This document shows positions 507 through 62,454 of a stretch of 64,000 nt of DNA, one piece after another. The position numbers and the translations under genes were made by a program. Below the pieces are notes generated by a model that was not told the DNA's origin, ran no database searches, and worked only from the letters and a program-made list of their open reading frames with translations. How positions within the stretch are numbered: position 1 is the first letter of the stretch; every line of letters starts with the position of its first letter. Source of the DNA: a virus; IMG/VR virus record IMGVR_UViG_3300038441_000779, positions 62,001 to 126,000 of that record; one strand, 5' to 3'.

Positions 507-1058
507 TTAAGCAGCGGCAACTGGGGGAGTACCCGCCAGTGGTTTATATTCTTCGTCAATAGTAGTTGGGTTAGCGGCGGCTTCAACAGCCAATTCGTCA
601 GCCATTTCGTTAAACGGATCACCAGCATGGCCGGCTACCTTGTGGAAGGTAACCTTGTTTAGCTTGAGTAGCTCGTCCATGATCTTCCAGAGATCGGCGT
701 TCTTAACCGGGGTTTGTGCCTGGTAGGTTACCCAATTGTTACGAATCCATCCACGCAGCCAATTGGTGGCGCCGTCGATAACATATTGGGAATCAGTGCA
801 GATAATGAAATGTTTACCTGGCCCGAACTCTTCCAGGGCGGCAATTACCCCCAAGATCTCTTGGCGGTTATTGGTGGTCATGTAGTAGCCCTTAGACAGC
901 TTAACCACAATGCCATCATAGATAGCTACAATCCCATAACCTCCAGGTCCGGGGTTACCCTTACAGGCGCCGTCAGTATAGATGATGTAAGGATTCTGTT
1001 TTAAAGCTTCCTTAACCCCCTTGTTACTGACTTTCTTTTTGAAACGATTACTAGCCAT
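507..1058 (-). CDS. rnhA: Ribonuclease HI
   Basis: Degrades the RNA strand of RNA:DNA hybrids, most likely removing Okazaki primers and R-loops during phage replication. The 183-residue protein has the complete RNase H fold signature: YTDGACKGNPGPGG near residues 27-40 with catalytic D29, NRQE with E67, CTDSQYV with D89, and the flexible His loop VAGHAGDPFNEMAD with H144 and D154. This is the full DEDD set plus the histidine. A basic N-terminal extension of about 22 residues precedes the catalytic domain, and a short Ala-rich tail follows. The ATG at 1058 is preceded by AGAGG. It lies downstream of the ligase-containing genes on the same strand, separated by a hairpin, which fits a lagging-strand maturation group. 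Confidence 0.96.
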   Translation of the reverse strand: MASNRFKKKVSNKGVKEALKQNPYIIYTDGACKGNPGPGGYGIVAIYDGIVVKLSKGYYMTTNNRQEILGVIAALEEFGPGKHFIICTDSQYVIDGATNWLRGWIRNNWVTYQAQTPVKNADLWKIMDELLKLNKVTFHKVAGHAGDPFNEMADELAVEAAANPTTIDEEYKPLAGTPPVAAA

Positions 1059-1106: not shown

Positions 1107-2507
1107 TTAAAAGTACATGTTGAAACTGTCGGTGGTATCACGCGGTTCCAACTGACGGGTCATCTCAGCGGCGGTGTCGATAGTTTTGATAACCTTGACA
1201 CGCGACATGATGGTGTCGGACACGTAACGCAGGATGCTGACCATCAGTGGATCGTTGGACGGTTTAACAGCTGGCTCTTCGTAACGGCCATCGAACATTA
1301 CCAGGGCCTTACCCAACCACTCGTCCAGCTCGTTGCGCAGTTCCCACTCTTCTTTGTCCAGCTTGAACTTGAACGGATCGGAAGTACCAAAGCCACCACC
1401 GATGATCTCGATGGTGTTTTCTTCGGTACGGACCATGAGCATGTCGCGGAAACGGCCGTGCGGCAGAACAACCTCGGTAATCGCCAGCTTGTTGCGAGCA
1501 TAGAGCGAGTTGGTGTTGATCGTCCGGTCTTTCACGCTCTGGTTGGCGATACCGATGAAGGTAGGGCAGTTCAACCAGCAACGCATCAGGTTAACGCCGG
1601 TGAGGGACAGGCGGCTGTTGGTACGAACGGTGGTCTCGGTGATAGTACACTCCTTGACCGCTACCCGCCCGTTACAGTCGATCTTGGAATCGGTGATCTG
1701 TGCCTGGAAGTAATCACCGCGGCTCAAACCACTGCGACGGATAGTGGAACGCTCCAGATAGACACCGTTGTAGTTGGTATCGAACTCACGCACTTTCTCG
1801 TATTCGCCCACATCCAGTTTCTTTGGAGTGTGGTCGACAGTGGTGTCACTGATCAGGCACTCGCTGTACTTGCCGCCGATCAGACTGACCGAGTTGAACA
1901 GACTGCAATCACGCACGTCGGCGTTGATCACGATAACAGACGCGCCGCGCTTGTGATCGACCTGGTTGCGGTTCATGCTCCAAGGATTGGACAGGTGCCC
2001 ACCGCTATCACGCTCGATCCACACCTTGGAGTCTTTGGACATCAAGTAGGCGTGGTACTGCCCTTCCAGCTCGAAGATGTACGCATCGAGTACGGTCTCT
2101 TTCGGAACCGGCAGTCCGTAATGGCGGTAGCAGAACCATTCGGAACTGAGGCCATCCGGGAAAGTCCGCATACCTTCCGGGTTATTGATTGCGGTGATGG
2201 AACCAAAGGTGAAGTCGCTAGCCACTGGGGCCAGCAAGTTACCCAAGACCACCAGGCCGGAGTCTAATCGGTCGAAATCTTTAATTGAAAGGCCCGACTG
2301 CACGACCTGAGAGATCTTGGGTACTTCTTTGGGTTTGTTGCCACCACGGAAGGTCGGGAAGGTACTAACCAGCCGTTGGAATTTGGCTGGCTCCAGTACT
2401 TCTTTGGCCGTTACTGGTCCGACTACCATTGGCAGGGTGGTTTCTTTGGACGCCACTTCTACCTTGGCAGTCCGAGCTGTCTTCACTACTGCTTTTGTAT
2501 CAGTCAT
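1107..2507 (-). CDS. Beta-solenoid-like protein coupled to DNA ligase
   Basis: I do not recognise a family. The protein is about 466 residues when started at the ATG at 2507; the GTG one codon upstream is possible but lies closer to the AAGGA. The ATG overlaps the ligA stop (TGATG), so translation is coupled to the ligase. The first 35 residues are Thr/Lys/Val rich. From about residue 180 to 330 there is a regular alternation of short beta-type strands and turns (for example ADVRDCSLFNSVSL, ECLISDTTVDHT, LERSTIRRSGL, AQITDSKIDCNGRVAVKECTITETTV), which resembles a pentapeptide-like or right-handed beta-helix fold. The C-terminal third looks alpha/beta with no catalytic signature. It could be a virion protein or a DNA-mimic or scaffold factor; its position between ligA and rnhA favours a non-structural role, but this is inference. 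Confidence 0.85.
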   Translation of the reverse strand: MTDTKAVVKTARTAKVEVASKETTLPMVVGPVTAKEVLEPAKFQRLVSTFPTFRGGNKPKEVPKISQVVQSGLSIKDFDRLDSGLVVLGNLLAPVASDFTFGSITAINNPEGMRTFPDGLSSEWFCYRHYGLPVPKETVLDAYIFELEGQYHAYLMSKDSKVWIERDSGGHLSNPWSMNRNQVDHKRGASVIVINADVRDCSLFNSVSLIGGKYSECLISDTTVDHTPKKLDVGEYEKVREFDTNYNGVYLERSTIRRSGLSRGDYFQAQITDSKIDCNGRVAVKECTITETTVRTNSRLSLTGVNLMRCWLNCPTFIGIANQSVKDRTINTNSLYARNKLAITEVVLPHGRFRDMLMVRTEENTIEIIGGGFGTSDPFKFKLDKEEWELRNELDEWLGKALVMFDGRYEEPAVKPSNDPLMVSILRYVSDTIMSRVKVIKTIDTAAEMTRQLEPRDTTDSFNMYF

Positions 2508-4483
2508 CACTTGAGTCCTTTTATCGTTTCGATCAGTTTATCGATACTACTTGCTTTGGTTCCCTCGATCGTAGGGATACCTAGCTCAGTTGCTTTTAAT
2601 ATCTTACTTTTACTAGGTTTCTCCCCGACCAACAGAAACTGGCAATCCTTGGTCAAATTCTCGACCAATTCAATTCCATGGCTTGCAAAGTAAGCGCCCA
2701 GCTCTTCCCGAGCTTGGCCCAACGAACCGGTAACGATGCCTTTGATACCAGTTACTACCGTTTCGTTTACATCCACCGACATATAACGCAGAATGTCTCG
2801 AGCGTTGTCGTAGAAGTCCTCATTGCGCAATACAGCTGCTATAGGCAAAGCCAACCCAGCACCAAAGCCAGGAACCTTCATGACCTTCTCAGGGTCTTTC
2901 AGGAAGTCCAAGGCGTCAGTATTAGGTGCTTCATCCCGACGCAGTTCAATAGGCAAAGCATCAGCCAGTTTCTTGGCTCGAGTCAGATCAATGCCCGGCA
3001 GGCCCAGTGCTTTGATAATGATGTGCCACGGTTGTTTACGTGCTGCTTGAATGCGTTCAGCGATCTTCTCCCCGACATTGGTAGGGTCCAGCAACCAAAT
3101 AACATCAGAAGTACTGCTGATGACGTCGAAGTCAATCAACTGTGCCAGCTTGACTGGTCCGAGGTCTTCGATATTCAGGCAGCGTTTATCAACCAGCGCT
3201 ACACAACGCATCAGAAGCTGCCCAGGACACTCCACAACGTTGTTACAAACGAGTTCGGCGCTGTTCTTGCTCTTACGTATCTCTAGAACAGAACCACAGC
3301 TAGGGCACTCTGTAGGAGCTTCAAAGAGGGGTCCGCTTCCGCTAGAGACGACACGATGCAACCGAGGAATAACATCGCCGTTGCGGCTGACCGAAATAAC
3401 ACTGTCTTCACGCAGCTCCAATGCAAGGAATTGGTAAATATTGTCCAGAGACGCTCGGTCACACTGAACACCGCCCAAACGAATAGGCTGGTAATTAATG
3501 CACGGAGTTACACGCCCAGTCTTACCTACCTGCCAGTCGATACTTACCGGAGTGGTTTCCTTCTCTTCGTCAGGGAACTTGTAAGCAATGGCCCAGTTAG
3601 GATGACGGTTAGTCACCCCCAATTCAGCCTGGCGAGCGATACTGTTGATCTTGCGCACCACGCCGTCCACTGGAATGTTGAGCAGTACCCTGTTGCGTTC
3701 GATATCCTGTTTGGTTGCTTGTGGGGCTGGCCAGAACCCTAGGCGCTCCCAAGCAAACCGCAGTTCTTCGTATTCGTCACAACCAAAGTTGGTATCGGAC
3801 CAGTAGATGTTGAAGTCCAGCAGTCCGATGGCGTTCTTGTCCATGTTCTTTTCCAGAGCACGAACAAAGCCACTGGCGGCATTACGTGGAGTACTCTTCT
3901 TCTTGACTGCTACCTCGTTGTAGGAGTCGAAGCTGAAGATATCCAGATAGCCTTCACCGCGTACTGTAAGCTGTTCCATGCCCTTTTGGCCACGCAACAC
4001 TTTAGGGATGGTGCGGAACAACGGAAGGGTGTGAGTTACGTCCTCACCTTCCATACCACTACCCCGAGTGGTCATCTGCTTGAATTCCAGATAACCGTCT
4101 TGGTTCTTGAGATACAGGATCTCCAACGCCAAGCCGTCGATCTTGTATTCGTCGTAGTACTCTTCGTCGGGGAACTTCTTGGTGAACTGTTCCAGCGCGT
4201 CGTGAGTCAATGCTTTCTTGAGGCTGAGCATTGGGTTGTCGAACGTAATCAACGTCAACCCAGCACCGCTAGGCTCGTGGATAGGTACTGGCTTGTTCTG
4301 TATGTCGAACAGTTCAGCCAGTTCCGGGTGGTGTTCCCGCAGCTCTTCGAAACGCTCCACCATTTCGTCGTAAACGTGGTTGGGGATGACCGCTGTGTTC
4401 TTGTTGAAGTACAAGTCGGCGTGATAGGCGATCTCTTTACTGAGCCTTTCCATCTCACCGAATACAGAATCTTTGTTAGGCAT
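2507..4483 (-). CDS. ligA: NAD-dependent DNA ligase
   Basis: Seals nicks with NAD+ as cofactor and probably joins Okazaki fragments. At 658 residues it is full length for bacterial-type LigA. Visible domains in order: an N-terminal Ia NAD-binding helix region (YHADLYFNKNT...HVYDEM, residues 20-41), PMLSLKKAL near 84-92, the adenylation motif KIDG with K114, NWAIAYKFPDEEKETTP, the GKTGRVTP / GGVQ motifs of the adenylation and OB domains, a four-cysteine zinc finger (CPSCGSV...LVCNN...ECPG), a helix-hairpin-helix region (KVPGFG) and a C-terminal BRCT domain (GIVTGSLGQAREELGAYF). No essential residue seems missing. The start ATG at 4483 follows GAGG. The stop overlaps the start of the next gene by one base. 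A hairpin lies upstream between this gene and the nucleotidyltransferase pair. Confidence 0.97.
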   Translation of the reverse strand: MPNKDSVFGEMERLSKEIAYHADLYFNKNTAVIPNHVYDEMVERFEELREHHPELAELFDIQNKPVPIHEPSGAGLTLITFDNPMLSLKKALTHDALEQFTKKFPDEEYYDEYKIDGLALEILYLKNQDGYLEFKQMTTRGSGMEGEDVTHTLPLFRTIPKVLRGQKGMEQLTVRGEGYLDIFSFDSYNEVAVKKKSTPRNAASGFVRALEKNMDKNAIGLLDFNIYWSDTNFGCDEYEELRFAWERLGFWPAPQATKQDIERNRVLLNIPVDGVVRKINSIARQAELGVTNRHPNWAIAYKFPDEEKETTPVSIDWQVGKTGRVTPCINYQPIRLGGVQCDRASLDNIYQFLALELREDSVISVSRNGDVIPRLHRVVSSGSGPLFEAPTECPSCGSVLEIRKSKNSAELVCNNVVECPGQLLMRCVALVDKRCLNIEDLGPVKLAQLIDFDVISSTSDVIWLLDPTNVGEKIAERIQAARKQPWHIIIKALGLPGIDLTRAKKLADALPIELRRDEAPNTDALDFLKDPEKVMKVPGFGAGLALPIAAVLRNEDFYDNARDILRYMSVDVNETVVTGIKGIVTGSLGQAREELGAYFASHGIELVENLTKDCQFLLVGEKPSKSKILKATELGIPTIEGTKASSIDKLIETIKGLK

Positions 4484-4554: not shown

Positions 4555-5028
4555 TTAGGCCGACTCGCGTACTTTGTTCTTTTCAGCCATCAGATCATTC
4601 AGCAAGCGGATGTCGACCAGATCTTGGTCGCGCTTAGCTTTTGAGCGTTCTGGCTGGGCATAGCCACCACGTTTCTGGATCATCAACGTCAGAACGTCAA
4701 AGATTTGGATGCCTTCTTCATTACAGATTGGGAAGTAGGTATTACGTTTACGGATCCAGATGGGGTGCTCTTCGTCCCATTCCTTGCCGTGCCCACTCTC
4801 ATACTGGAAAGCGACGTCCGTCATCGGATGGCAAATCACTTTCTGGTGAACGGCCAACTTGTGGAACGATTCTTCGTTTACCCACAGGTTGATGTCCTGG
4901 GTATGCTCTCGCAATCCCATGGCAACCAATGCACCGCCGCCACCCACGACCATGTGTTCAAATGGAATACCGTGGTCTTCGAAAAGAACTCGCAAAGTTA
5001 CTGCGATGTCATAAGAACTCTTGAACAT
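4555..5028 (-). CDS. Nucleotidyltransferase-fold protein, degenerate active site
   Basis: A 157-residue protein with the outline of a minimal (MNT/AbiEii-like) nucleotidyltransferase: VVGGGGALVAMGLREHTQDIN, i.e. a glycine-rich turn at residues 29-32 followed after about 12 residues by D45-I-N47. In active family members this position is Asp-x-Asp/Glu, so N47 replaces a metal ligand. The C-terminus has the family's typical helical stretch (ERSKAKRDQDLVDIRLLNDL). It starts one base after the stop of its upstream paralogue (5030-5515) and aligns with it residue for residue around position 45, so the two arose by duplication. Most likely the pair form a catalytic and non-catalytic partner, or this copy has become a binding protein. 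No substrate can be named. Confidence 0.75.
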   Translation of the reverse strand: MFKSSYDIAVTLRVLFEDHGIPFEHMVVGGGGALVAMGLREHTQDINLWVNEESFHKLAVHQKVICHPMTDVAFQYESGHGKEWDEEHPIWIRKRNTYFPICNEEGIQIFDVLTLMIQKRGGYAQPERSKAKRDQDLVDIRLLNDLMAEKNKVRESA

Positions 5029-5029
5029 A

Positions 5030-5515
5030 TCAAACCTTAGTTCTGTTAAGTTGGAGACCGGCAGCAGCCAGCTGGTCCCGCATTGAGTAAACGTTGTCCA
5101 GGCATTCCTTCAACGCCTGGATGTCTTTACGATCTTGCGCGGCCTTTAATGGGGGACGTTCAGGATGGTTCGCCATGATTTCTTTTTGTTTGATGAGTTG
5201 TTCCGGATGGTAGATCCAGATACCCAAATAATCCATGACATGAACTTTGTCAATCCCCGTAGGCAGCATGTGGAGATCCACCATGCCGTCCCATGCGATA
5301 AGCTCGCCAGTAAGACCTTGCTGAGCCCCTTTTCGTGCTTTATGTTTTTCGAAGAAGTCCACGGGCACGTCCACATCCAGGTCACTGGTATATTTACGCA
5401 AACCCAACAGAACCAAAGCAGCACCGGCGGACAGTACTACCTTTTCGTAAGGCAACCCTAGTTCAACGCAGAGTTGCTTATAACGACGAGATACAGCAGC
5501 ACGATCTAGACTCAT
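5030..5515 (-). CDS. Nucleotidyltransferase-fold protein (AbiEii/MNT-like)
   Basis: A 161-residue protein with a recognisable nucleotidyltransferase core: SAGAALVLLGLRKYTSDLDVDV gives the turn at about 29-32 and the metal-binding pair D45-L-D47; a candidate third acidic residue is D80 (GMVDLHML). The C-terminal helix RPPLKAAQDRKDIQALKE matches the usual Lys/Arg-Lys-Asp-hydrophobic end of this fold. Members transfer nucleotides to proteins, RNA or antibiotics; the substrate here is unknown. It precedes the degenerate paralogue by one base and lies between ligA and a Rad50-like gene. The start ATG at 5515 follows AGG. It is not a phage tRNA CCA-adding enzyme, which would be far longer. Confidence 0.78.
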   Translation of the reverse strand: MSLDRAAVSRRYKQLCVELGLPYEKVVLSAGAALVLLGLRKYTSDLDVDVPVDFFEKHKARKGAQQGLTGELIAWDGMVDLHMLPTGIDKVHVMDYLGIWIYHPEQLIKQKEIMANHPERPPLKAAQDRKDIQALKECLDNVYSMRDQLAAAGLQLNRTKV

Positions 5516-5523
5516 GGCATTAC

Positions 5524-5838
5524 CTACCCTAACATGTTTTCATTCATGTGACCGATGATGTTCTCGATGCTCTGGGCGTCAATTGAGGTGTACGCCGGGT
5601 TCAGGGCGGTATAGTTGATACCTTTCATACCCATCGAATCGAAGTTCACCAACGCCTGGTTCATCCCATGGAACTCCACAACGGCCGTCTTAGGACCACT
5701 GTTTTGTTGAATGGTGATGTACGCCACACCTTGTCCAGCAAACGAGGGGATCAGCACCCCGGTCTTGTCCTGAGTTACGCGAACTGGAAGTTTCACTGGT
5801 GAATTCCCTTGTGTAGAAAACTGGCTATAGCCGTTCAT
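5524..5838 (-). CDS. Hypothetical small protein
   Basis: A 104-residue frame from the ATG at 5838, followed after 8 bases by the nucleotidyltransferase start. The N-terminal 25 residues are Gln/Ser/Thr-rich; the middle (TGVLIPSFAGQGVAYITIQQNSGPKTAVVEFHG) looks all-beta; the end is helical. No known domain is recognised. The ribosome site is weak (GGGAAG about 13 bases upstream). It has its own 114-bp upstream region after a terminator hairpin, so it probably heads the transcript carrying the nucleotidyltransferases. Confidence 0.75.
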   Translation of the reverse strand: MNGYSQFSTQGNSPVKLPVRVTQDKTGVLIPSFAGQGVAYITIQQNSGPKTAVVEFHGMNQALVNFDSMGMKGINYTALNPAYTSIDAQSIENIIGHMNENMLG

Positions 5839-5916: not shown

Positions 5917-5952
5917 TTCATACATCGTAGTAATATAGGTCCAAAATAAATC

Positions 5953-8421
5953 TTAGACTACCACGCTGTGCTTGTTAGGGGTGCCGGGTAATGTCAGTCC
6001 CTCGTACTTAAAGGCAATGATATTCGGATCCTTGAGGATACCGTATTGCCCGAAATAGTGAGAGACCATGAAGAGTTGCCGTGGGTTCTTGCCCTGCGTG
6101 TATTCCTGGATGAAGTTAAAGAAGCGGCCGCGCTTGATCTCGTCAAACGACACACCAACCTCATCCATGATCAACGGAGTAGGGAACCCTACGTATGCAG
6201 CCAATACAAAACGAAACGCCCAGTCAATCATGTCGGTTTCACCGGCAGAGCATTCCGAGATATCCGGGGTGGGGTCAGCATCACCCGTCACCACTGGGAA
6301 CTTGTAATTGAGGTCCCCGTTCTCTTTGTTGCAAGGTTTCACATAAAGAGTGGTGTTCCAGATTTCTTTAATAACAGTGTTGACGTTACCGCACAACGAA
6401 TTGATGAAGTCGCTCATCAACTTACCAATGATACCCTTGCTAGGGCACAGGCCATCCATCAGGATCTCGACGGTCTTGAGTCGAGCACGCATCCGGTTAA
6501 TGTCAGAGGTAATGGATTCCACTACCGCTGTCAGGCTCTTGGCGTTGATGATCGAACTCATGTGTTCGTCTTTCATGCCAGTCAGTTCAGAAACCCGAGT
6601 GTCTACCAAGTCACGCAACTGAACGTTAGCACGGTTAGCCATGCCTTCCAGGAGTTCTACTTGCAAGAGACGAACTTCTTCGATCTCCCGCTCATAGTTG
6701 GCGATGCTCATCAACTCTTCGTTAAGCAAGAACACCCGGCGCTTGTAGAAAGAGATCTGGTTATTCACACCCACCAAATCAGTCTCAAGGTTCTGGACAT
6801 GTGTTGCGATATCCAAAACGTTATCTTGGCTGATAAGGTCCAAGCGAGCGTCTACAACCTTCTTCTCATCGAACAGGGTCTGTCGGTAAGCAATCACCCC
6901 AACACGGCACATAAACGCATCCAGGACGTTACAGAGGGGTCCTGCTGGCGACTTACCAATGTTGTACGAACGAATCAGTTCTGGAAGTACCCGAACGTTA
7001 CCATTCTCCCGAACAAAGTTATAAAGCTGGTTCATTGTCAGATACCATTCGGCATCGTTTTCAATACGCAGATCCAAAGCTTTACTTTGAGCAGTTAGTC
7101 GTTCTACCTGGCCATATTGCGCCGCAATGGTTTCTTGCAGCGTGGCAATGTCCTTTTGGGTAATCCCTACCTTAAATGTGCTGGTGCAATCAGGACACTC
7201 GATATTCTCAGCCGACTGGTAGTGACGGAGTTTATGCTCCATCTGTTCCAATTGCGATTTAAGGTTACGCAGCTTGTTGCCTAGTTGTTCCTGATCCAGC
7301 AGCAACTGCTTATAAGCGCCGCTGGTGAGACTTTCGTCACTCAGGGTAACAACCCTACCCAAGTACTCTTTAAACCTGCCTACGACGTACTCCAGGCCTG
7401 TAAAGACCATCTCTGGGTCATCGAACACCGGCTGGTTGTTAAGCAGGTTGTTATAACGCTCCAGATCCTTATTGGTTCGCGCCAAGTCCTCGTCGATGTG
7501 CTTGGCTTGGTCCTTGAAAGCACCAGGATCTTTCAGGAAGTCATCCAATCCTTCGAGGTAGGAGGCGTGCTCCGCGATAACCCCTTTCAGAACGTTGGCC
7601 TTGTCCTGATACTTGCTCAGCATGCCGTCTGCTGTGTCATAGGCCGACTCAAGCTCTTCCTTAGAGAACTGAACACCGCTGAGGTTATTTACCAACAGCT
7701 TGTCCACCAAGAAAGTATAACGATCATGTTTACTACGCAGATTAGGATCCATCTTAGCCGATTCCAAACGCCCACGCATTAACAACGAACTTTGCAGATC
7801 TTGATCGACCTGCTTAATCCGACGCTCGAGTTCCTCTACCCCACAATTACTAAGTGTGGAGAGTTTACGGTTCTCTTCGGTGTGGCGTTCGATCTGCTTC
7901 TTGATCGTTGACTTGAGGTCGTTACGTTCTTGTCGCAGTTTCGAGTAAACCCCCAACGCGTATTCCGTGTCGTTAGGGTAGACCTGGAGGATAACTTCCT
8001 TGCGACGGTTAGGTGACATGGCCGAAAGACGGTCTACCATCTTCAAGCCGTTCAGGATCCGAATCAATCCGCCGTCTGCTTTGCCGAAGTGGTTGTAGAC
8101 CAATTCTTTCTGTGCACTGTAAGTACCGCCAGTGTTCAGCTCAGGACCGTCGTCAATTTTAAAGCTATGACCGTTACCCACCCCGGTGTAACTGTCGAGT
8201 TTGTACGTCCGCTTATTGTGTATGTATTCCACATACTTCCGCCCACCACGGTAGTTACCGTTCTCTGGTGGTAGCGGATTAAGTTCTTTTAAGCACGACG
8301 TCTTCCCCACGCCATTTGGCGCAATAAACAAATTGATCATGCTGCGCGTGTCCAACTCAATCTTGGTGATCCCACTCGACAGCAAAGGAATGTAATTTTC
8401 GAGAATCAGTTTTACAAGCAT
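5953..8421 (-). CDS. SbcC/Rad50-like recombination ATPase
   Basis: An SMC-type ATPase expected to pair with an Mre11/SbcD-like nuclease for DNA end processing or recombination-dependent replication. I place the start at the ATG at 8421 (822 residues, AAGGA upstream): the longer in-frame reading to 8538 would run into the divergent plus-strand gene. Features in order: Walker A IAPNGVGKTS (about 33-42), a long coiled coil with a central zinc hook ECPDC (about 407-411), a second coiled coil, the ABC signature region ECSAGETDMIDW (about 723) and Walker B TPLIMDEVGVSFDE (about 745-758). The domain order and central CxxC are typical of Rad50/SbcC and T4 gp46. No SbcD/gp47-type nuclease is seen in the window. 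The stop is followed by a hairpin. Confidence 0.9.
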   Translation of the reverse strand: MLVKLILENYIPLLSSGITKIELDTRSMINLFIAPNGVGKTSCLKELNPLPPENGNYRGGRKYVEYIHNKRTYKLDSYTGVGNGHSFKIDDGPELNTGGTYSAQKELVYNHFGKADGGLIRILNGLKMVDRLSAMSPNRRKEVILQVYPNDTEYALGVYSKLRQERNDLKSTIKKQIERHTEENRKLSTLSNCGVEELERRIKQVDQDLQSSLLMRGRLESAKMDPNLRSKHDRYTFLVDKLLVNNLSGVQFSKEELESAYDTADGMLSKYQDKANVLKGVIAEHASYLEGLDDFLKDPGAFKDQAKHIDEDLARTNKDLERYNNLLNNQPVFDDPEMVFTGLEYVVGRFKEYLGRVVTLSDESLTSGAYKQLLLDQEQLGNKLRNLKSQLEQMEHKLRHYQSAENIECPDCTSTFKVGITQKDIATLQETIAAQYGQVERLTAQSKALDLRIENDAEWYLTMNQLYNFVRENGNVRVLPELIRSYNIGKSPAGPLCNVLDAFMCRVGVIAYRQTLFDEKKVVDARLDLISQDNVLDIATHVQNLETDLVGVNNQISFYKRRVFLLNEELMSIANYEREIEEVRLLQVELLEGMANRANVQLRDLVDTRVSELTGMKDEHMSSIINAKSLTAVVESITSDINRMRARLKTVEILMDGLCPSKGIIGKLMSDFINSLCGNVNTVIKEIWNTTLYVKPCNKENGDLNYKFPVVTGDADPTPDISECSAGETDMIDWAFRFVLAAYVGFPTPLIMDEVGVSFDEIKRGRFFNFIQEYTQGKNPRQLFMVSHYFGQYGILKDPNIIAFKYEGLTLPGTPNKHSVVV

Positions 8422-8476
8422 GGTATAGATTTCCTTAACGGATACCTGTCCTTTTCTAAAGTATGGAGTACGTGGT

Positions 8477-9475
8477 ATGAGTTTATTGCAGTTTCTCGGA
8501 GTGGGTACCGTTACCGCTACCAAGGACACCAATACCAACGAAGTAATGGTTTACGCTCCGTTCTTATTTCCGCAGGCTGAGGGTCGTCTGTCGGCAAACG
8601 CTGAACGGGTAGAACGGGTAAGTAAGAACGCCGCTGGTGAAGAAGTTCGTAGTACTGCTTTAAAGAGCAATAGTATTCCGGCTGTCTGGCGGAAGATGGA
8701 TAACAGTAACCGTATCTCAGCTCCTGACGTTCGGGAGGGCAGTAAGGTAAGCATCTACCGCATCCCAGGTCAGAACGTTTACTACTGGTCACTGGATGGG
8801 GTGAACCCTGATACCTTCCGGATGGAGACAGTCCAGTACGGTTGGAACGCTAACCCTCACGTAGGGGAAAACGGAGAGTTCGAGGTAGACAACTTCTACC
8901 TGCTCAACTTTGACACACGTAACGGTCTTATCCAACTCCGTACCAGTGAGGCCAACGGCGAAGCTACTACCTTCGATATCCAGATCAATACCAAAACTGG
9001 TACGATCAACTTCGGTGGTAAGAACGGTAGCATGCTGAAGTATGACGACGTCGAGCGCTCGTTTACTTACACCAACCAAGACGGTAGTGTGTTGCGGGTG
9101 GTGAAGGAAGAGATAATCGCCCATGCCCCGAAGAGTATCTCTCTGTTCACTGACCAAACCGTTAACCTGAAAACCAAGACCCTCAAGATCCAGGCAGAAG
9201 AAGCTTTTGTCGATATTGGGGTGACCAAATGGAAGGGGCGTTTCGAACATACCGGGGATAGTACCCAGTTGGGTGACCACGACCAGGTAGGACGGACGTC
9301 TCAAGAAGGTAACTACATCCAAGAGGGTGATTTCACTCAGGACGGTAACCAGGTTACCTTTGGTCTTATTATCGGTACTGAGGACGTACGCACCTCTACC
9401 GTTAGTCTTAACCTCCACCCACATAGTGGCGTTGAGGGCGGTAAAGATACTTCGGGCCCGCCCGTACCAAGCTGA
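8477..9475 (+). CDS. Tail spike tip (central baseplate spike) protein
   Basis: A 332-residue protein probably forming the membrane-piercing needle at the tail end. The middle is repetitive beta sequence suggestive of a triple beta-helix (TFDIQINTKTGTINF, SFTYTNQDGSVLRV, TVNLKTKTLKIQAEEAFVDIG, then THGD/QLGDHDQVGRTSQEGNYIQEGDFTQDGN-type short turns from about 263). The end, LNLHPHSGVEGGKDTSGPP, carries the H-x-H pair (H314, H316) and Gly/Pro-rich cap known from P2 gpV and related spikes, where the histidines bind an iron ion at the tip. The start is supported by GGAG 8 bases upstream. It is divergent from the SbcC-like gene (55-bp gap) and convergent with the tail fibres across a strong hairpin. 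Confidence 0.75.
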   Translation: MSLLQFLGVGTVTATKDTNTNEVMVYAPFLFPQAEGRLSANAERVERVSKNAAGEEVRSTALKSNSIPAVWRKMDNSNRISAPDVREGSKVSIYRIPGQNVYYWSLDGVNPDTFRMETVQYGWNANPHVGENGEFEVDNFYLLNFDTRNGLIQLRTSEANGEATTFDIQINTKTGTINFGGKNGSMLKYDDVERSFTYTNQDGSVLRVVKEEIIAHAPKSISLFTDQTVNLKTKTLKIQAEEAFVDIGVTKWKGRFEHTGDSTQLGDHDQVGRTSQEGNYIQEGDFTQDGNQVTFGLIIGTEDVRTSTVSLNLHPHSGVEGGKDTSGPPVPS

Positions 9476-57302: not shown

Positions 57303-58411
57303 TACATGCCTCCGTTGAGCAGCTTGACGAGGTCGGACAGATTGTTCGAGCCCATATCTTTCTTACCTTTCAGCGCCAGGTCTTTACGGGTGTAGATCTC
57401 TGGACGCGATTGACCGTGGGTGTAGAAGGTGAAGATACCGCGGTCTTCGTTGCAAACCACGATGGTGTTCGCCTTCACAGCCTTGAAGATCTCGTTGCGC
57501 GAGTTCTCGTTGGCGAAACGACGACCGATCGACAACTCGAGTTGGTTGGCGGTGTCCTGAGTAAAGATGAAGGTGTTCGCCAGGTTGTTAACGGAAACAA
57601 CACCGGTACGAACGGCAGCGACGCGGTTACCCGACTCGTTGCTCATCGCTTCACGGTAATACCCGGACATGTCCTCGTTCTTGATCTTGAAGCGCTCTTT
57701 GATGATGTCCTTACCGGTCAGCAGATCAGGTACGGTGATCTCCTTGGTTTGAACCATCAGGAAACGAGCGAACATGCCGTCTTCGATCTTGGCCGCCGAG
57801 AACACACGGGTCAGGCTGGCTGGATCGATAGGCACAGGGATCTGACGGAAGGTCAGAGGGAAGTCGATGTCCTTACCGCTGGCGGTAGGCAGGGTAGCCA
57901 CGACCGTACGACCCACCGCCAGAGGGGTGTATTCGTTCAGGTCAGGCATGTTCTTACCACCGACGTTAACGGTAGGAATGAACTCCTTCTCTTCCTTGGC
58001 TTTCTCTTCTTTGGTCTTGATGTTGTTGTCGTGGGCTTCGATACCCGCGAGGCACAACAGACCGGCGCGCTTCGGATTGATGGAACCAATCAGGTTCTCA
58101 ACCTTCACGCCCATCGCTACGGAACTCTCCATCGACAGGTGGGTGAGAGTAGCGACGATGTCACGCAGGTTGACGATTTGCATCAGGTCATTCATGTACT
58201 CCTGGTGCAAAGAAGTAGCTTCGATTACCACCATCGGAGCCACGATAGAACGCGCCGCGCTCTCGTGAACCGAGGTGGTGGAAACCACATTGTATGCCTG
58301 CCTGACATTGTCCGCTGCGTTGGCTGCGGAGGTGATATCTTTGCTGTCTGGGTAGAGTTTGGAGGCCACACCCAGAAACAGAGATCCCAGGTTCAAAACT
58401 GCAGAGATCAT
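57302..58411 (-). CDS. Virion structural protein candidate, first gene of operon
   Basis: A 369-residue protein; the ATG at 58411 has GAGGT 9 bases upstream. It begins with a hydrophobic helix (MISAVLNLGSLFLGVASKLY) that could be a membrane-active or signal-like segment, though Ser/Gly-rich. Then come helices and a beta-rich C-terminal half (NTFIFTQDTANQLELSIGRRFANENSRNEIFKAVKANTIVVCNEDRGIFTFYTHG). A Lys/Glu-rich loop (TKEEKAKEEKEF) lies near 130-145. Not recognised. It heads the internal-head operon and starts 34 bases from the divergent virion gene. Confidence 0.8.
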   Translation of the reverse strand: MISAVLNLGSLFLGVASKLYPDSKDITSAANAADNVRQAYNVVSTTSVHESAARSIVAPMVVIEATSLHQEYMNDLMQIVNLRDIVATLTHLSMESSVAMGVKVENLIGSINPKRAGLLCLAGIEAHDNNIKTKEEKAKEEKEFIPTVNVGGKNMPDLNEYTPLAVGRTVVATLPTASGKDIDFPLTFRQIPVPIDPASLTRVFSAAKIEDGMFARFLMVQTKEITVPDLLTGKDIIKERFKIKNEDMSGYYREAMSNESGNRVAAVRTGVVSVNNLANTFIFTQDTANQLELSIGRRFANENSRNEIFKAVKANTIVVCNEDRGIFTFYTHGQSRPEIYTRKDLALKGKKDMGSNNLSDLVKLLNGGM

Positions 58412-59512: not shown

Positions 59513-62454
59513 TGGCCATTAGTCAAGATCAACTTATTGCTCTGGCGGATAACCCAGAGCGTGGTATCGATACCATCATCAACGATATCGAGAATACCTG
59601 GTTCGATAAACGGGTCCAGCTTAACAGTAAAACCCACCCAGCTATCTTTGCTGCGGATCTGATCATTGGCACCTCGTATGGCGTGCTGAACCGTATCGAC
59701 GACTCGATCAGTCGTAACTTTGCAGACCATGCGCGGAACATCTCTGACCTGGCCAAGCACATGGGCGACGAAGAGAAGATCGGTCTGTTCGGTAACCCTA
59801 GTAACTGCACCATGGTTCTGGGTATTCAGATCAATGCCTTTAATAACCTGGCCAAGGATAAGACCGTTACGGTAGGCAAGGTTACCACCACGTACAAAAT
59901 GCTGTTGTTCCCCAAAGATACCGAGATCATCATCAACGGCTATTACTTCGCCATTGAGAACGGCATCGAGATCCGTTACAAGGAGTCTTCGGGTTACCAG
60001 GTAGTGTATGACGATAGCACACCTAACTCCCAGGCTCCTATCCGTGACAACGTGCTCAAACGTGGCTTCAAAGAAGAGAACGGTCAGATGTTCTTGGTTA
60101 TCCAAGTTCCTGTTCGTCAACTCCGCTGTTTGGCTACTGAAGGCCTGACCTCCAACGCCTCGTCTGGTTGCCGTGGGAACATCGAATACCCGGATAACCT
60201 GTATAACGTTCGTGCCTTTATTCGTCGTGGTTCTAACCCGAACGTGTTGCAGGAAATCAAGGTAGCCTTCGACCAGGATGTGTTCGACCAGAACAACACC
60301 ACGCTGTCGCTGAATATCGACACCACCAACAAGACCTTCAACTACGAGATCCCCGACGTTTATATCCAGGATGGTAGCGGTGTTGGCACAGTCCACATTT
60401 ATACCTACACCACCAAGGGTGATCTGGTTAAAGACTTCCGTGAAGTACCGTTGAAGGAGATCGTGGTCAACTACCAGGACTACCGTTATGGTGCTGGGCG
60501 TCTTGGTCCTTATTCGGAAGGTTTGCGTAACTCTGGTGCTATCGCTTGGGGTGTCACTGAGATGACCCGTGGTGGTACTAACCCAAGACCGTTCCTGGAA
60601 GTCAAGGAAAGCTTCTTGCAGGGTCGTCGGGTACGTAATCTGCCTATCACCGAGAACAACCTGGAAGGTACAGTAGAAGGCTTCGGCTATAACTCGGTTA
60701 AGAGTATCGATTACCTCACTGGTCGCCAGTACTCGATTACCAAGGAACTGCCTAAGCAAAGCAACAAAGACTTCTACGCTCCTATGGCGTGCTTTGTGGG
60801 TAGTCACCTCACTTCTGCTAACCAGTTGGTGGCAAGTGGTGTGGTGTTGGATAACGGTAAGCGTATTACCATTCCGCACAACGTATTGTTCGACGTCAGT
60901 GCTTATACCACTCAGCTGGTTACCCAGCCGATCAAGGATAAGTATCTGGGCCTGTCCAACGAAGCGCTGGTGGAGCTGGTCAGTAATAAGACCTTGGTCT
61001 ACACCCCGTTCTACTACGTGATGGATACCACCAACAACCAGGCGGTATTGCGTACCTATCACCTGGACAGCCCGAAGTTCGGTTACCAAACCTTTGTGGC
61101 CGAGAACGACGCTCTCAACATCGAAGTAGGTGTTGGGCAAATCGACATGGTCCATCAGGAAGACGGTTACCTGATCACCATCGTTACCCAGAGCAGCCAG
61201 AGCTACAAGGAACTGGACAACGATGCGGTCGGTGTACAGATGTCGATGAACATTGTCGACTCTGAGTCGTTGGCTAGCCTTAAGGCTACGTTCTACGGTG
61301 TTACTGAAGCCGGTGAGCGTATCTGGCAGTTCAAGTTGAAGACCAACTTCGACCTGGACATTAACGACGTACTGTACTTCAACAACCTGTGGATGTTCGG
61401 CCAGCAGCAGTACAGTGTTGGTACTCCGCTCGATATGAACATGACGTTCATCTTCACCATCAGTGGTGACCCTACTGCCACAGACACTCCGTCCGATCGC
61501 AAGATTGAACAGAGCATGTTTGCTGACAACCAGGTAGCCATTATCGAGACTTCTTATTCGGTTGTTATCGGTAGCCGTCTGGGCAACCTGTACAGTCGGA
61601 TTCGTCCATTGGTTGGTGAAGGTCAGTACAAGCGCTATGAACAGGACGTGCCTGAAACCTACCCTGCTGATGTATTGAAGCGGGATGACGAAGGCAAGTT
61701 GATGTTTGACGGCCAAGGTGAAGTCATCGTCGAGCATCGTGCTGGCGAGATCATGTACAACAGCGCTGGCAAGATCATTCTGCGTTACCGTAAGAATGAC
61801 TTCATCCTGGACAGTGCTGGTCAGCGTATCCCTCTGGCACCACGTGAACTCCTGCATCACTTCGACTTCATTGCGTTTGATGCGGCTTACTACTTCAGTC
61901 GTGATGATTACGACAAAGAGTTTGCTCAGGAGACCAAGGACCACTTCGTCCATGTAGTCGGTGCGGATATGAGTTACTTCGACACATTGACTCTGGACCG
62001 TACTGGGTTGTTCTACCAGCCGCGTAGCAAGATCGGTCCGGTACAAGTGTTGGTCAACAGTAACTACCAGATGTACCTCAAGCAAGACCTGAGTTTCGTG
62101 TTGGTGTACTACTTGACTCAGGGTGGCTACAAGAACCAGAACTTGAAAGACTCGCTGTTGGCTAGCAGTCCTAAAGTGATCAACGAAATGCTGGACGGTG
62201 CTACAACTATCTCCACCGCAGAGATCATCCAAGCTTTGCGGAACAACGCACCACCTGAAGTAGTGGGCATCAAGCTCAACGCTTTGGCAGGGGATAGCAC
62301 AGTAGATATTATCAGTAACGAAGACTCGCTGACCGGTTTCAGTGTTCGTAAGTTGCTGAAGCTGACCAGTGACCAGTTGGTGGCGGTACAAGAGGCGATC
62401 GATACCTCGTTCATGCCTCACGACCGTGCAATGGTAAGTATGGGCCAAGTATAA
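59512..62454 (+). CDS. Large virion protein, baseplate-wedge candidate
   Basis: A 980-residue protein started at the ATG at 59512, overlapping the previous stop (TAATG); an upstream reading to 59464 is not needed. Features: an N-terminal helical region, beta-sandwich-like sections (TEIIINGYYFAIENGIEIRY, VHIYTYTTKGDLVKDFREVPLKEIVV), then IAWGVTEMTRGGTNPRPFLEVKESFLQGRRVRNLPITENNLEGTVEGFGYNSVKSID (about 360-415). The last has the flavour of the J/gp6 baseplate-wedge core, where a conserved Arg-rich strand precedes an extended loop. The C-terminal half is beta-rich and Asp-rich. Size and neighbours fit a wedge protein, but identity is not established. Confidence 0.8.
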   Translation: MAISQDQLIALADNPERGIDTIINDIENTWFDKRVQLNSKTHPAIFAADLIIGTSYGVLNRIDDSISRNFADHARNISDLAKHMGDEEKIGLFGNPSNCTMVLGIQINAFNNLAKDKTVTVGKVTTTYKMLLFPKDTEIIINGYYFAIENGIEIRYKESSGYQVVYDDSTPNSQAPIRDNVLKRGFKEENGQMFLVIQVPVRQLRCLATEGLTSNASSGCRGNIEYPDNLYNVRAFIRRGSNPNVLQEIKVAFDQDVFDQNNTTLSLNIDTTNKTFNYEIPDVYIQDGSGVGTVHIYTYTTKGDLVKDFREVPLKEIVVNYQDYRYGAGRLGPYSEGLRNSGAIAWGVTEMTRGGTNPRPFLEVKESFLQGRRVRNLPITENNLEGTVEGFGYNSVKSIDYLTGRQYSITKELPKQSNKDFYAPMACFVGSHLTSANQLVASGVVLDNGKRITIPHNVLFDVSAYTTQLVTQPIKDKYLGLSNEALVELVSNKTLVYTPFYYVMDTTNNQAVLRTYHLDSPKFGYQTFVAENDALNIEVGVGQIDMVHQEDGYLITIVTQSSQSYKELDNDAVGVQMSMNIVDSESLASLKATFYGVTEAGERIWQFKLKTNFDLDINDVLYFNNLWMFGQQQYSVGTPLDMNMTFIFTISGDPTATDTPSDRKIEQSMFADNQVAIIETSYSVVIGSRLGNLYSRIRPLVGEGQYKRYEQDVPETYPADVLKRDDEGKLMFDGQGEVIVEHRAGEIMYNSAGKIILRYRKNDFILDSAGQRIPLAPRELLHHFDFIAFDAAYYFSRDDYDKEFAQETKDHFVHVVGADMSYFDTLTLDRTGLFYQPRSKIGPVQVLVNSNYQMYLKQDLSFVLVYYLTQGGYKNQNLKDSLLASSPKVINEMLDGATTISTAEIIQALRNNAPPEVVGIKLNALAGDSTVDIISNEDSLTGFSVRKLLKLTSDQLVAVQEAIDTSFMPHDRAMVSMGQV

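Follow-up and report, generated by a model that had tools for sequence, protein, structure and literature searches.

A tandem gene pair in a DNA-processing cluster

The window analyzed here is a 64,000-nt stretch (positions 62,001 to 126,000) of a 184-kb IMG/VR virus record, IMGVR_UViG_3300038441_000779. It carries two adjacent minus-strand genes, each supported by an open reading frame, an AlphaFold2 model, Foldseek matches, and 16 orthologs: copy A (5030..5515), encoding a nucleotidyltransferase (NTase)-fold protein of 161 aa, and copy B (4555..5028), encoding a 157-aa paralog that we class as an NTase-fold pseudoenzyme. A single base (5029) separates the TGA of copy A from the ATG of copy B; the coordinates, lengths, order, and one-base gap given in the initial annotation are all correct. 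The first 24 kb of the window had no near DNA match among 50,697 phage records, and the nearest annotated relatives of both proteins are from Pseudomonas phage EL and EL strains. The initial annotation had regarded the pair as having no known counterpart in phiKZ-type phages. EL encodes the same pair as adjacent hypothetical proteins, gp120/gp121, immediately before its NAD-dependent DNA ligase. The pair itself is therefore not new, its genes having been public since the deposition of EL.

The surrounding genes, all on the minus strand, bear out the assignment of the pair to a DNA-processing cluster. In order along the strand, they run from an SbcC/SMC-like ATPase (5953..8538; Pfam SMC_N E 3e-5, below cut-off), whose real start is probably internal to this open reading frame and whose orthologs in related loci are 48–70% identical, through a 104-aa gene (5524..5838), copies A and B, and a conserved NAD-dependent DNA ligase (2507..4483; Pfam DNA_ligase_aden E 6e-38), to a 467-aa gene and a conserved RNase H (507..1058; Pfam RNase_H E 1e-42). 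This order is identical in phage EL. The 467-aa gene (1107-2510) overlaps the end of the ligase gene, matched no family over threshold in profile searches, and is 20–32% identical between loci, well below its neighbors. The 104-aa gene, the first in the operon, was identified by its reading frame, its conservation, and a profile match to phrog_16812, for which no function is assigned.

We compared 16 EL-like jumbo-phage loci (the window, EL, and 14 environmental contigs), and in all of those found, copy A is directly followed by copy B; the small phrog_16812 gene is likewise kept in 16/16. Between this small gene and copy A, eight loci (L010, L011, L014, L024, L025, L031, L033, and L038) have about 430 extra bases, which in the two that were read (L010 and L025) hold a gene of about 150 aa without known function, overlapping the beginning of copy A. 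The record of Pseudomonas phage vB_PQ1 (L007, PQ516283.1) shows copy B and the SbcC-like gene each broken into several reading frames, likely by sequencing error, and its frameshifted copy B was excluded from the counts.

Directly downstream of the SbcC-like gene lies an early-type phage promoter motif, ACCTATATTACTA (5928..5940, minus strand), a 13-mer with a single exact match, both in the window and across the record as a whole. The core TA[CT]ATTA[CT] preceded by ACC (ACCTAYATTAY) occurs in the same place in 16/16 loci, just after the SbcC-like stop codon and upstream of the gene of about 100 aa, copy A, and copy B, and the same site in EL carries a putative-promoter annotation. It fits the published consensus motifs of both EL, WTTTYAAACCTACATTATY, and phiKZ, TATATTAC (PMC7058600, Table 2), and motifs of this kind are early promoters in phages with profiled transcripts (PMC7598289). 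The motif gives strong grounds to expect early expression of the operon, and its conservation points to a job soon after infection. The co-transcribed arrangement behind it agrees with the proposal that the two proteins are made together, and it makes a role in host take-over or counter-defense directly testable in EL, a phage of laboratory use.

Fold and common ancestry of copies A and B

AlphaFold2 models built from 10–11 sequences each were of high confidence for copy A (pLDDT 91.3, pTM 0.83) and copy B (pLDDT 92.0, pTM 0.85). Both matched the solved structures 4ok0, 4o8s, 2ewr, and 8an5 by Foldseek (probability 0.98–1.00, E 0.004–0.02), with probabilities of 0.99–1.00 for copy A against solved NTases, and the leading solved matches of both were H. 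pylori 4ok0, JHP933, Thermotoga TM1012, MenT1, and viral polyadenylate synthases (probability about 0.9–1.0). Copy A additionally matched the structures of ANT(2'')-Ia and LnuA. A PDB sequence search found nothing useful. The E values are modest and the TM-scores to solved NTases are about 0.45–0.55 for both models, so the fold class is well supported, although the solved structures include no close relative. Among viral models, the top matches were mostly unnamed proteins of other jumbo phages (RP12, 201phi2-1, EL, PhiEaH1, RSF1, Phabio, Noxifer). The Pol beta NTase fold class proposed for both proteins is thus well supported by the models.

The two copies are paralogs, as the initial annotation had it, with 30% identity over 141 aa by BLASTP (E 1e-11) and a profile-profile match by hhalign at 99.4% (E 5e-22 over 141 columns), and each matches phrog_12854 over most of its length (copy A E 8e-22, copy B E 4e-20). 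Maximum-likelihood phylogeny places the 16 A proteins in one clade and the 16 B proteins in another, both with 99/95 support, indicating a single duplication before the EL-like radiation. Mean pairwise identity over the 16 loci is 47% for copy A and 41% for copy B, and pairwise dN/dS of about 0.08–0.28 shows that both copies are under purifying selection. These ratios, well below 1, indicate that copy B is a maintained pseudoenzyme; pseudogene decay is ruled out by them and by its invariant N47 and W49, and chance reading frames are ruled out by the strong conservation. A scan of GTDB genomes for copy A, a weak test with a narrow pattern prefilter, found no cellular relative.

The two copies have probably not always traveled together. 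Between the window and locus L016, copy B is 80% identical (4555-5028 against L016:5001-5465), as compared with 37% for copy A, 49% for the SbcC-like protein, and 48% for the ligase. Copy B alone therefore appears to have been exchanged between the two lineages, which speaks against tight, obligate co-adaptation of the pair and weakens the reading of A and B as an obligate heteromer.

Metal sites of the two copies

Active Pol beta NTases carry a pair of acids in the pattern [DE]h[DE]h and a third acid on a later strand; canonical enzymes have a loop of the form hG[GS]. The initial annotation contrasted D45-L-D47 in the upstream copy with D45-I-N47 in the downstream copy, and we read the same residues. 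In copy A, codons 45-49 (D-L-D-V-D; 5369..5383, minus strand) form the metal-ligand strand (46-50 in the model), which holds an extra in-phase acid, D49, and codon 80 (5276..5278, minus strand) encodes an Asp on strand 79-83 that is a candidate for the third metal ligand. D47, D49, and H82 are present in 16/16 loci, D45 in 15/16 (Glu in L004), and D80 in 15/16 (Gly in L031). Copy A thus carries the acid pattern of active NTases; copy B fails it, with N47 in 16/16 and no third acid. The spacing of D45, D47, and D80 resembles that of D39, D41, and D71 in MntA, which hold Mg2+ (PMC7641770).

The glycine loops show the opposite trend, being S29-A30-G31 in copy A and G-G-[GS] in copy B, each in 16/16 loci. 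Read from the sequence, copy A keeps the acids beside an unusual loop and copy B keeps the loop while having lost acids. From its acids we infer that copy A may be catalytic; the invariant S-A-G allows that it is non-canonical or even inactive, since MntA activity is abolished by changing GS to AT, as it is by changing DxD to ExE (PMC7641770). In the EL strain GXNNE2 (L002:2546-2983), copy A reads TNNLDVDV, with N45 in place of D45 and with D47 and D49 kept, a natural substitution that suggests that D47 and D49 may outweigh D45 in importance.

The metal site of copy B is broken, as claimed, and more severely than claimed. Its codons 45-49 (D-I-N-L-W; 4882..4896, minus strand) encode a conserved but degenerate site, with N47 and W49 in 16/16 loci and D45 in 15/16 (Ala in L014). 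The refuting condition set in the initial annotation, homologs that never conserve the paired Asp, does not apply: this Asp persists in copy A, with Asn at its place in every copy B. Near the position of the D80-x-H82 strand of copy A, where the alignment is loose, copy B has no recognizable acid. The loss of the second acid thus stands, but with the D80 equivalent missing as well, copy B lacks two metal ligands out of three rather than a single one. Roughly where copy A has D80-x-H82, copy B instead has a conserved basic and aromatic stretch (codons 93-99, R-K-R-N-T-Y-F; 4732..4752, minus strand), in which R93 and N96 are each found in 15/16 loci and Y98 in 14/16.

These residues bear on the chief rival to a joint function, which we consider rather doubtful: copy A would be an enzyme and copy B a separate protein that binds nucleotides or nucleic acids at a new site (N47, W49, R93, N96, Y98), the two being adjacent only as early genes. 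Such separate work is consistent with invariant residues that copy B has of its own, unlike a decaying copy, with the exchange of copy B alone between the window lineage and L016, and with the single copy in the jumbo phages RVTF4 and D6. It does not readily account for the adjacency of A and B in 16/16 loci though other genes come and go alongside.

The wider family offers further combinations. The protein is single-copy with DxD in D6 and RVTF4, and single-copy with a degenerate motif in 201phi2-1 (gp304); FLC6 has a tandem pair (gp104/gp103) with DxD in both members, again next to a ligase, and PhiEaH1 (gp184/gp183) has one DxD copy and one degenerate copy (gp183). The DNA ligase gene adjoins the NTase genes in both Burkholderia phages FLC6 and SURPRISE13, and the depositors of the latter had already labeled SURPRISE13_105 a putative nucleotidyltransferase superfamily protein. 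The degenerate motifs of gp304 and gp183, N45 in the GXNNE2 copy A, and the absence of the first Gly of hG[GS] from copy A would all suit a scheme in which neither copy is an enzyme and the fold serves as a ligand-binding scaffold from which catalysis has been lost repeatedly. We think this unlikely, as D47, D49, and H82 are invariant and D80 is kept in 15/16 copies of A at 47% mean identity, and D6, RVTF4, FLC6, and SURPRISE13 retain DxD as well.

Proposed role and relation to known families

We tentatively favor, at a little under even confidence, a reading in which copy A is an NTase with an RNA or protein substrate, active early in infection, and copy B is its non-catalytic partner. A gene for a small NTase-fold protein was duplicated in tandem long ago and spread through the EL-like jumbo phages. 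Copy A would be a metal-dependent enzyme that places an NMP on an RNA 3' end or on a protein; copy B, predicted to be unable to hold the catalytic metals, may still bind nucleotide, since its fold and glycine loop are preserved, and would bind the substrate for copy A or regulate it. Both would be made early from one promoter, with the DNA ligase downstream. The loss of D80 from copy A of L031 and N45 in that of GXNNE2 count against this reading. A more elaborate form, in which a conserved heteromer of an active A and a pseudoenzyme B, made early by these relatives of the nucleus-forming jumbo phages, chemically tags host RNA or protein and so disarms a host defense or redirects host translation, is speculative and improbable.

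A specific version of the favored reading, in which copy A, with copy B, repairs or labels the 3' ends of RNA in the manner of the RlaP or CCA-adding enzymes of other jumbo phages, strikes us as quite unlikely. Jumbo phages do use NTases in RNA repair (PMC7824862), and copy A resembles the catalytic folds of MenT1 and viral poly(A) polymerase, but neither copy matches an RlaP or CCA-enzyme family, and no adjacent ATP-grasp or RtcB RNA ligase was seen, the "RNA ligase" of EL scoring as Acb1.

Acb1 is an anti-CBASS cyclic-nucleotide nuclease, and two genes annotated or clustered as RNA ligase score above its Pfam cut-off: L040:3424-3864 (record positions 57423-57863, a short way outside the window) and gp126 of EL (L001:11925-12350, labeled RNA ligase), with E values of 5e-7 and 3.5e-11 in the order named. 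A DHH phosphoesterase is encoded nearby. An Acb1 homolog in the same genome region of this phage and of EL would fit a counter-defense role, as would the early-type promoter and the precedent of MntA (PMC7641770): copy A would transfer AMP in the manner of MNT and thereby block a HEPN-type RNase of the host or another toxin, with copy B as its adaptor. We give this version only a slim chance, given that neither a GSx10DxD motif nor an MNT family match is present and that nothing in the sequence indicates a HEPN target.

Among the open-access papers searched, we found no description of the NTase fold assignment for the EL-like phages, of the fixed broken site, or of the promoter link. The fixed pairing of an intact with a broken site offers precise mutants, at D47 of copy A and at N47 and W49 of copy B.

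Neither copy scored above a family threshold in Pfam, NCBIfam, or PADLOC searches, and no HEPN or AbiEi-type partner was seen, so the suggested membership of MNT or AbiEii did not hold up. The fold is shared with MenT1/AbiEii-type enzymes (8an5, 8an4), but the curated AbiEii/MenT cut-offs of Pfam and NCBIfam are not reached by A or B, a PADLOC match of copy A to an AbiEii profile is weak (E 0.0037) and covers 44 residues of the motif region only, and, unlike AbiEii and MenT, the pair has no recognized cognate antitoxin gene among its neighbors. Copy A shares with MntA three similarly spaced acids and differs in having S-A-G instead of GS and 13 rather than 10 residues from there to DxD (D45); with DxN in copy B, the GSx10DxD motif is absent from both. 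No HEPN partner with RX4HXY was matched among the neighbors (the 104-aa phrog_16812 protein, the paralog, and the DNA ligase), and membership of MNT/AbiEii was rejected on these failed family tests. Two other members of the copy B group gave weak matches to DUF6036 (PF19502; best E 0.0028), as did one of the copy A group (E 0.041), none over the Pfam cut-off of 23.6 bits; P0001 and P0002 had no match, nor did anything in the phage's own genome even at E 10.

The RlaP and CCA-adding NTases of jumbo phages belong to the same fold superfamily and occur in the same kind of virus (PMC7824862), but A and B have no Pfam match to either family and no RNA-ligase partner beside them, and RlaP membership was rejected, the neighbor called RNA ligase in EL scoring as Acb1. 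By profile score, A and B belong with PHROG 12854, whose members include EL gp120/gp121, PhiEaH1 gp184/gp183, FLC6 gp104/gp103, and 201phi2-1 gp304; EL, FLC6, and PhiEaH1 likewise carry the gene in tandem. This family has no assigned function though it is present in the well-studied phages EL and 201phi2-1, and our analysis assigns it a fold together with a putative active site; the fixed combination of an intact-site copy A with a DxN...W copy B is found only in the EL-like clade.
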